DNA of 64,000 bases from Aliarcobacter lanthieri (lineage in GTDB: Bacteria; Campylobacterota; Campylobacteria; Campylobacterales; Arcobacteraceae), in assembly GCF_013201625.1 (NCBI RefSeq), contig NZ_CP053839.1, positions 1,736,001 through 1,800,000 of the forward strand, read 5' to 3'. The position numbers and the translations under genes were made by a program. Within the stretch, counting starts at the first letter, position 1, and every line of letters begins with the position of its first letter. The notes beneath the pieces were generated by a model. That model did no database searches and was not told where the DNA came from. It worked only from the letters and a program-made list of their open reading frames with translations. Shown in pieces: positions 60,172 through 61,667 of this stretch.

Positions 60172-61380
60172 TTATTTAATTATTTCTGAAACAACTCCAG
60201 CACCTACAGTTCTTCCACCTTCTCTAATAGCGAATTTAGTTCCTTTATCTAAAGCGATTGGAGCAACTAATTCAACTGTCATTTCTACGTTATCACCTGG
60301 CATAACCATTTCAGTACCTTCAGCTAAAGTACAAGAACCTGTTACGTCTGTTGTTCTAACATAGAATTGTGGTCTATATCCACTAAAGAATGGAGTATGT
60401 CTTCCACCTTCTTCTTTTGAAAGGATATAAACTTCACATTTAAAAGTTGTATGTGGAGTAATTGTTCCTGGTTTAACAAGAACTTGTCCTCTTTCAACAT
60501 CTTCTTTTTTAATACCTCTTAAAAGAATACCGCAGTTATCTCCAGCTTGACCTTGTTCCATCTCTTTTCTAAACATTTCAACACCAGTAACTGTTGTTTT
60601 TCTTGTATCAGAGAATCCAACGATTTCAATCTCTTCACCAACTTTAATAGTACCTTGCTCAATTCTTCCAGTAACAACTGTTCCTCTTCCTGAAATAGAG
60701 AAAACATCTTCAACTGGCATTAAGAAAGATTTTTCAGTATCTCTTTCTGGAGTTGGAATATATTCATCAACTGCATCCATTAATGCAACGATTTTTTCAG
60801 CCCATGGTCCAACAGCACCTTTTTTAGCTTCTTCTAAAGCTTGGAATGCAGAACCAGCAACGATTGGAGTATCATCACCTGGGAAATCATACGTAGATAG
60901 TAATTCTCTAATTTCCATTTCAACTAATTCTAACATTTCATCTTTGTCAGAAGGATCTAATTGATCTTCTTTATTTAAGAATACAACGATATATGGAACA
61001 CCTACTTGTTTAGATAATAGGATATGCTCTCTTGTTTGAGCCATTGGTCCATCAGTTGCAGCAATAACTAAGATAGCTCCATCCATTTGAGCAGCACCAG
61101 TAATCATGTTTTTAACATAATCGGCGTGACCTGGACAATCTACGTGTGCATAGTGTCTTTTATCAGTTTCATACTCAATATGAGAAGTAGCAATAGTAAT
61201 TCCTCTTTCTCTTTCTTCTGGAGCATTGTCGATTTGATCGTAATCTTTCATTTCTCCACCATATTTAAGTGCCAATACTGCAGAAATTGCAGCAGTTGTA
61301 GTAGTTTTACCGTGGTCAACGTGTCCAATTGTACCAATGTTTACGTGCGGCTTATTTCTTGAAAACTTTTCTTTTGCCAT
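60172..61380 (-). CDS. tuf: Elongation factor Tu
   Basis: 402 aa, normal for Campylobacterota (394 in E. coli). GTP motifs are [14 protein letters not shown] near residue 19, DCPGHADY near 82 and NKEDQLD near 137, the last with Glu where enterics have Cys. Domains 2 and 3 are complete. It carries aminoacyl-tRNA to the ribosome. The leader (61381-61490) carries a strong hairpin, and four tRNA genes lie just upstream on the same strand. Confidence 0.97.
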
Positions 61381-61417
61381 AGGAATTCCCCTTCTAAATT
61401 TATTTTACTTAATTTTG

Positions 61418-61459
61418 CCCTCTGAGTAGATAAGCCAGCAGGCTTCTCTATTCAGAGGG
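61418..61459 (-). promoter_or_regulatory. Structured 5' leader of tuf
   Basis: CCCTCTGA pairs with TCAGAGGG, and inside it AGAGAAGCC pairs with GGCTTATCT (one mismatch) around a TGCT loop. No T run follows. It lies between the putative tuf promoter and the ribosome site AAGGGGAA. Confidence 0.75.
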
Positions 61460-61487
61460 GGATTTGTTTTACACAAATTGAATGTGT

Positions 61488-61493
61488 ATTATA
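61488..61493 (-). promoter_or_regulatory. Putative -10 box for tuf
   Basis: Minus-strand TTAATATAATAC holds TATAAT, 107 bases before the tuf ATG and upstream of the leader hairpin. Confidence 0.55.
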
Positions 61494-61536
61494 TTAACTA
61501 AATACTAAAAACTAAATTAATGGGATATAAAAATTA

Positions 61537-61567
61537 GAGTTATAAAAAAAATTTGCGTTTATAACTC
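61537..61567 (-). terminator. Possible terminator of the tRNA Phe-Thr-Tyr-Gly operon
   Basis: GAGTTATAAA pairs with TTTATAACTC (10 bp), loop CGCAAATTTTT, then TAATTTTTATA on the minus strand, 24 bases after the CCA of tRNA-Gly. Confidence 0.6.
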
Positions 61568-61593
61568 AGCTCCCAGTAATCAATAAATAATGG

Positions 61594-61667
61594 AGCGGGA
61601 GACGAGACTCGAACTCGCGACAGTCTGCTTGGAAGGCAGAAGCTCTAGCCAACTGAGCTACTCCCGC
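61594..61667 (-). tRNA. tRNA-Gly (TCC), second copy
   Basis: Same sequence as 38385-38458 on the other strand, CCA encoded to 61591. Last gene of the Phe-Thr-Tyr-Gly group. Confidence 0.96.

Follow-up and report, generated by a model that had tools for sequence, protein, structure and literature searches.

The tuf locus and its leader hairpin

The window, i.e., the whole 64,000-nucleotide stretch of Aliarcobacter lanthieri DNA that was analysed (contig NZ_CP053839.1, positions 1,736,001 to 1,800,000), carries the tuf gene for elongation factor Tu (EF-Tu) downstream of a tRNA cluster. The features of the locus are listed in Table 1.

Table 1. Features of the tuf locus, in positions of the window
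Feature	Position	Strand	Remarks
tuf, elongation factor Tu, 402 aa	60172..61380	minus	gene behind the leader, start at 61380
tuf ribosome site AGAAGGGG	61388..61395	minus	from sequence
tuf leader hairpin	61418..61459	minus	17 pairs (8 + 4 + 5) in three stems parted by A.C and G.A; loop TGCT
Lower stem, 3′ arm TCAGAGGG	61418..61425	minus	strongly conserved
Lower stem, 5′ arm CCCTCTGA	61452..61459	minus	strongly conserved
Predicted tuf -10 box TATAAT	61488..61493	minus	sequence match and relatives
Two-part inverted repeat, then T-rich tract	61519..61586	minus	conserved; between tRNA-Gly and the tuf promoter
tRNA-Gly(TCC)	61591..61667	minus	last of the upstream Phe-Thr-Tyr-Gly tRNA cluster

The leader of tuf contains an imperfect hairpin, which reads on the minus strand, from 61459 to 61418, CCCTCTGA-A-TAGA-G-AAGCC-TGCT-GGCTT-A-TCTA-C-TCAGAGGG. 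A preliminary description of this DNA had placed it between the tuf promoter and the ribosome site, in agreement with the sequence matches to TATAAT upstream and AGAAGGGG downstream. The same description gave about 17 pairs in two stacked stems with a TGCT loop; the 17 pairs, the loop and the coordinates stand, whereas the stems number three (8 + 4 + 5). The 57-nt segment 61410–61466 folds with an energy of −26.6 kcal/mol and a z-score of −6.6, and none of 200 dinucleotide-preserving shuffles (mean −10.4, sd 2.45) was as good. For the whole spacer (61380–61590), z was −5.3, again with 0 of 200 shuffles as good, and for a longer piece including the first tuf codons z was only −2.4 (4/200). The 17 pairs lie within a 19-layer helix, a double-stranded extent of the long, near-continuous kind found in RNase III sites. 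Compared with riboswitches by inspection, the element is a single hairpin with a variable apical loop.

The predicted -10 box ends at 61488, which would put the transcript start near 61482 and give a leader of about 100 nt. A transcript start downstream of 61418 had been named as counter-evidence to a structured leader; the start predicted from the box lies upstream of the hairpin. The mean 5′ UTR of C. jejuni is given as 30.6 nt in an excerpt of PMC3847290. Where the tuf transcript is predicted to begin (61461–61483, minus strand, and the same place in genus g1), there is a small AT-rich fold of varying sequence, e.g., CACAATTTGTG in some species, with a mean z of −2.1 over 19 distinct segments from the genus.

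Conservation and covariation in Arcobacteraceae

Matches to tuf were found in 96 of 104 Arcobacteraceae genomes, with a single match in 95 of these 96. The exception, G073, has a second EF-Tu match (G073:C19:404-1579) that is 66% identical and contains 11 in-frame TGA codons; this frame probably comes from a contaminant in which TGA codes for an amino acid. Leaders were read in 90 of the 96 genomes (G019, G038, G047, G050, G074 and G102 were left out), and the hairpin was present in all 90. The consensus core was found in 87 leaders, and the remaining three (G036, G037 and G039, genus g5) have a diverged sequence in which the stem is still formed. Conservation is strong across 18 of the 19 genera read, the nineteenth being diverged. 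In G102, outside the 90, the covariance model of the hairpin also finds it before tuf.

The alignment of 70 distinct hairpins has standard pairs in 1162 of its 1180 pair cells, whereas control structures slid by 1–3 columns never exceed 48%. Both sides have changed in 6 of the 17 pairs, in 24 cells, where cells count related sequences and not independent events. The clearest paired change turns CTCTGA/TCAGAG into CTTTGA/TCAAAG, the pair concerned being C-G in 56 sequences, U-A in 8 and U-G in 6. Four of five covariation measures were higher than in any of 500 shuffles; the measure for further pair types was not, its value being reached by 66 of the 500. The lack of paired changes among relatives, which had likewise been named as counter-evidence, does not apply, given the two-sided changes in these six pairs.

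Sequence is kept as well as pairing. The A.C mismatch is retained in 63 of the 70 distinct sequences (G-C in 3, A-U in 3); at the second mismatch, 49 sequences have G.A and 19 have U-A. Between genera, identity is 0.92 in the 5′ arm and 0.96 in the 3′ arm, compared with 0.64 at four-fold sites within tuf codons 1–33, 0.38 in the 30 nt upstream of the hairpin, 0.48 in the 20 nt downstream and 0.56 in the 20 nt that directly precede the tuf start; these values (87 leaders, 18 genera, 3171 genome pairs) are raised by the choice of leaders by consensus core, which left out the three of g5. The 3′ end of the hairpin lies 25–43 nt before the tuf start codon in all 87 leaders measured. The structured tuf leader proposed in the preliminary description has strong support from covariation and conservation. 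Comparison of relatives shows selection on both sequence and pairing in a conserved structure before tuf.

The surroundings of the hairpin follow two layouts. In 71 of the 90 leaders (one of them, G034, partly masked in this stretch), over 90 nt separate the hairpin from the last tRNA called, which is tRNA-Gly in 70, and a -10-like box lies 28–100 nt upstream of the hairpin in 64 of the 71. In the other 19 leaders, from 8 genera, tRNA-Thr is found 11–87 nt upstream (11–41 nt in 13), and a -10-like box at 28–100 nt is present in only 2 of the 19, a difference due in part to the smaller room in these leaders. The hairpin is kept across both layouts, which suggests that it is part of the tuf transcript and not of the promoter. 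The tRNA order Thr-Tyr-Gly-Thr-tuf is found in many relatives, in E. coli tufB and in most of the other-family regions read, and is likely to be ancestral since E. coli tufB and most of those regions have it in common.

Distribution of the hairpin and relation to known RNAs

In its own genome, the covariance model found one strong place (E = 2.2e-18), which scored on the opposite strand too; the next match (L093, E = 0.014) covered the inner part only. An order-wide search of 298 genomes (30 from the family, 268 others), with stricter filters under which weak matches are lost, gave E = 7.5e-12 or better in 29 of the 30 family members. G038 was missed because its contig begins at the tuf gene and the leader is absent from the record. 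Of the 268 genomes from outside the family, 25 yielded a match at E ≤ 0.1, and the best match (G189, E = 8.6e-5) lies inside an apparent coding sequence. In 20 other families of the order, represented by 59 tuf upstream regions, two model matches at E ≤ 1 were obtained, one of E = 0.0045 that overlaps the start of tRNA-Tyr (L180) and one of E = 0.97, and neither represents the hairpin, which was not found in these leaders at this threshold. A search for covariation in Campylobacterota had been proposed in the preliminary description; covariation is found within Arcobacteraceae and does not extend to the phylum at large, the 59 other-family regions being without the hairpin.

A pattern scan of 84,980 species genomes returned 48 stretches. 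ATGGCNAAR follows within 70 nt downstream in 47, and in 46 of these the frame begins with the EF-Tu-like MAKEKF.R.KPH, the record of the 47th ending after six codons. The 48th stretch, from a record labelled Desulfitobacterium, is a perfect inverted repeat of an unrelated kind. Matches at the same locus include records named Arcobacter, Aliarcobacter, Malaciobacter and Poseidonibacter. The comparison supports the hairpin as a putative cis-acting element of the tuf 5′ UTR that is specific to Arcobacteraceae. One record labelled Lutibacter (L211, DQTL01000060.1) contains an Arcobacteraceae-type tuf locus with the hairpin and has probably been mis-binned.

Other structures occur in front of tuf elsewhere in the order. 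Three of the four genomes of family f4 (L127–L130) have another strong tuf-leader hairpin, GGGTGCCTCTGTAAA..TTTGCAGAGGTACCC or nearly so; the fourth, G141 (L129), has the 3′ arm only, and TTTGCAGAGGTACCC is common to all four. A short palindrome, AAGTTTYGGCCRAARCTT, stands behind tRNA-Thr in ten tuf leaders of four other families (L126, L139–L142, L144, L146, L147, L179 and L185). Folds that reach at least −15 kcal/mol in stability within 60 nt occur in 18 of the 59 other-family leaders, seven of them from f6, where the hairpin lies, by eye, upstream of a promoter-like box. For 10 of the 20 families, none of the tuf leaders sampled contains a 60-nt stretch with a fold below −10 kcal/mol.

A scan with Rfam 15 gave only tRNAs at gathering scores within the window, and the 22 matches to 61360–61590 were all below gathering. 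The hairpin was not described in the literature searched for tuf leaders or motifs, structured RNAs of Arcobacter and the tufB RNase III site. Stav et al. 2019 (PMC6429828) screened the intergenic regions of Arcobacter sp. L, and most of the Arcobacter-confined candidates are left unnamed there. These candidates resemble the tuf hairpin in being intergenic and from the Arcobacter group; the main text of PMC6429828, its supplement aside, contains no tuf, EF-Tu or elongation factor, and the tuf leader region may be listed in that supplement. The tuf leader hairpin could become a new Rfam family.

The Salmonella-type autoregulatory tufB leader reportedly involves two competing stem-loops; in the Arcobacteraceae leaders, no clear co-evolution of the 5′ arm with the ribosome site was seen. 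The preliminary description knew of no named leader of this type for tuf; this holds for Rfam 15 and the literature searched, although the tufB mRNA of Salmonella is known to be structured and autoregulated (Brandis et al. 2016 as cited in PMC10882980, excerpt). The tufB genes of Salmonella and E. coli are similar to the Arcobacteraceae locus in having mRNA structure within a tRNA-tuf operon, and many of the relatives have their tRNA order, Thr-Tyr-Gly-Thr-tuf. The excerpt of PMC10882980 states that the first 65 codons of Salmonella tufB matter and that mutations close to the start codon shift the structure towards an open conformation; that structure takes in the start-codon region and early codons, whereas the Arcobacteraceae hairpin ends before the ATG. 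The hairpin model gave nothing better than E = 2.3 in the E. coli tufB stretch. The E. coli tufB spacer (L238:831-944) ends with CUUAGAGGGACAAU followed by CG, which by eye is like the 3′ arm and flank of relatives, CUCAGAGGGCAAU; this likeness is possibly due to chance, the model being without a match there.

Leaders of ribosomal-protein genes carry a conserved hairpin before a translation gene, and in this respect the tuf hairpin is like them. It differs from them in the gene, tuf, in having no Rfam match and in having no convincing likeness to rRNA, so that mimicry of rRNA of the ribosomal-protein-leader kind was rejected after model searches of rRNA loci and alignments of the arms against shuffles. 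The rRNA loci searched were 21, the own genome and 20 relatives, and 20 of 41 genomes searched gave no match. The strongest model hit in the own loci (14.1 bits, E = 0.0067) falls within the spacer immediately upstream of 23S; 8 of its positions do not pair, and the model did not recover it in the rRNA loci of the 20 relatives. A weak match (10.9 bits, E = 0.42) recurs at one place in 12 of the 21 loci, and the rRNA locus L247 has one match at E = 0.026. One arm shares a 9-base match with the 16S locus, reached by 43 of 300 shuffles, and the arm alignments were within the shuffle range.

Possible role of the hairpin

Of all bacterial proteins, EF-Tu is usually one of the most abundant. To our knowledge, the control of its level has been little studied where only one tuf gene is present, and a small RNA element with sharp limits before tuf makes this question directly testable. 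The position and conservation of the hairpin point to a possible control of the tuf message, and we infer that it acts in the mRNA and is recognised by an RNase or a protein. We give a probability of about 0.4 to its being a post-transcriptional 5′-UTR element that would set the processed 5′ end or the stability of tuf mRNA. It would most likely act after transcription, the stable stem with its kept mismatches, 25–43 nt before the start codon, marking the processed 5′ boundary of the tuf message. The stem might be cut by a double-strand-specific RNase such as RNase III, or it might block a 5′ exonuclease, and in this way it could determine how long a very abundant mRNA lasts and how it is translated. 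In leaders with a promoter-like box for tuf itself, the hairpin would sit about 15–80 nt inside the transcript, and where tuf follows tRNA-Thr, it lies 11–87 nt past the tRNA 3′ end that would be exposed by processing. Control of tuf mRNA stability, which had been suggested in the preliminary description, is plausible; a response to tRNA or EF-Tu level, the other suggestion made there, is conceivable.

Processing or stability is favoured because the hairpin is indifferent to the promoter layout, because it sits just before the region covered by the starting ribosome and because unrelated strong hairpins precede tuf in some other families, which would suit a generic structural role. It is also favoured because the excerpt of PMC5371410 counts E. 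coli tufB among the known RNase III sites; that source does not give the place within tufB, and its Table 1 of known RNase III sites is without tufB. The E. coli site and the Arcobacteraceae leader are alike in that both belong to the mRNA of a tRNA-tuf operon with possible double-stranded RNA processing, and they differ in that the Arcobacteraceae hairpin is conserved beyond the RNase III need reported in that excerpt. According to the same source, RNase III recognises structure and not sequence; a pure processing or stability stem therefore needs no arms kept nearly letter for letter, which counts against this explanation. So does the finding that 10 of the 20 other families are without a strong leader fold, since such a stem is then not generally needed. 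The pair counts alone leave the strand undecided, and this counts against an mRNA-level reading.

The conservation of the lower stem and mismatch beyond the needs of RNase III favours sequence-specific, perhaps autogenous, control, which is the main rival and only somewhat less probable; in it, a protein (EF-Tu, a ribosomal or other RNA-binding protein) would read the lower stem and the A.C mismatch and exert feedback on the translation or stability of tuf. Arms conserved beyond the needs of pairing and a mismatch kept in 63 of 70 sequences agree with such a regulatory leader, as do the one strong place in the own genome, the tuf-bound position of 47 of the 48 pattern matches and the autoregulation of tufB in Salmonella described in the excerpt of PMC10882980. 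However, there is no convincing rRNA likeness to suggest a borrowed ribosomal-protein site, and other families of the order do without the hairpin. The narrower case, in which free EF-Tu or linked machinery would bind the lower stem and A.C mismatch and limit tuf expression, seems unlikely; if true, the hairpin would be a direct autogenous EF-Tu leader in single-tuf bacteria. It would also differ from the control of Salmonella tufB, for which a translation-speed model is said to hold. A translational switch is very unlikely; in it, opening of the hairpin would let CCCC of the 5′ arm pair with GGGG of the ribosome site. In the own genome, CCCCCTCT of the 5′ arm could pair with AGAAGGGG, and the 16 nt before the start are computed to be unpaired at only 0.54 on average (lowest 0.39), so that the ribosome site is not strikingly free. 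The duplex of arm and ribosome site is stronger in native combinations (−8.88 kcal/mol) than in those swapped between genera (−8.43 kcal/mol, one genome per genus), but the difference is small, and the native and swapped duplexes give no clear co-evolution of the 5′ arm with the ribosome site. Several genera have AAGGA or AAAGG as the ribosome site, with no GGGG, and the hairpin (−19 to −29 kcal/mol) is far more stable than the duplex.

A strong stem between tRNA genes and tuf might also be an intrinsic terminator or an attenuator of tRNA read-through, yet this is the least credible of the readings and the sequence contradicts it: the tail on the tuf strand, GGGCAAAATTAAG, is without a U-tract in the own genome, and a terminator scan gave nothing at the hairpin on this strand. 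Moreover, 17 of the 19 near-tRNA-Thr leaders have no -10-like box 28–100 nt upstream, and with tuf directly behind the stem, termination there would silence it. A DNA-level feature, i.e., an operator for a transcription factor or an element read on the other strand, is quite unlikely. When the mismatch positions are included, the other strand pairs in slightly more cells than the tuf strand (1204 vs. 1187 of 1320), and the scan of the plus strand shows a terminator-like site. On the other hand, when these positions are dropped, more cells pair on the tuf strand than on the other (1162 vs. 1115 of 1180), and no steady plus-strand T-run is seen by eye in relatives. An imperfect stem of 17 pairs is long for an operator, and the hairpin stays at its steady distance from the start codon while promoter-like boxes vary.

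A second element lies upstream of the tuf promoter, at the inverted repeat given in Table 1. Its sequence, TTGATTACTGGGAGCTGAGTTATA, is found with up to three mismatches in 55 of the 104 family genomes, once in each, and consists of an inner repeat GAGTTATA/TATAACTC and an outer repeat TGGGA/TCCCA, followed by the T-rich tract. A relic of tRNA-Thr was considered and rejected, the alignment score being reached by 211 of 500 shuffles. By pattern, both stems are present in 53 of the 67 leaders carrying the element; the RNAalifold consensus gave only four pairs, so the two stems are taken from the reading of the sequence and the pattern counts and not from covariation. The element may end the tRNA transcript as a possible terminator of the tRNA operon.
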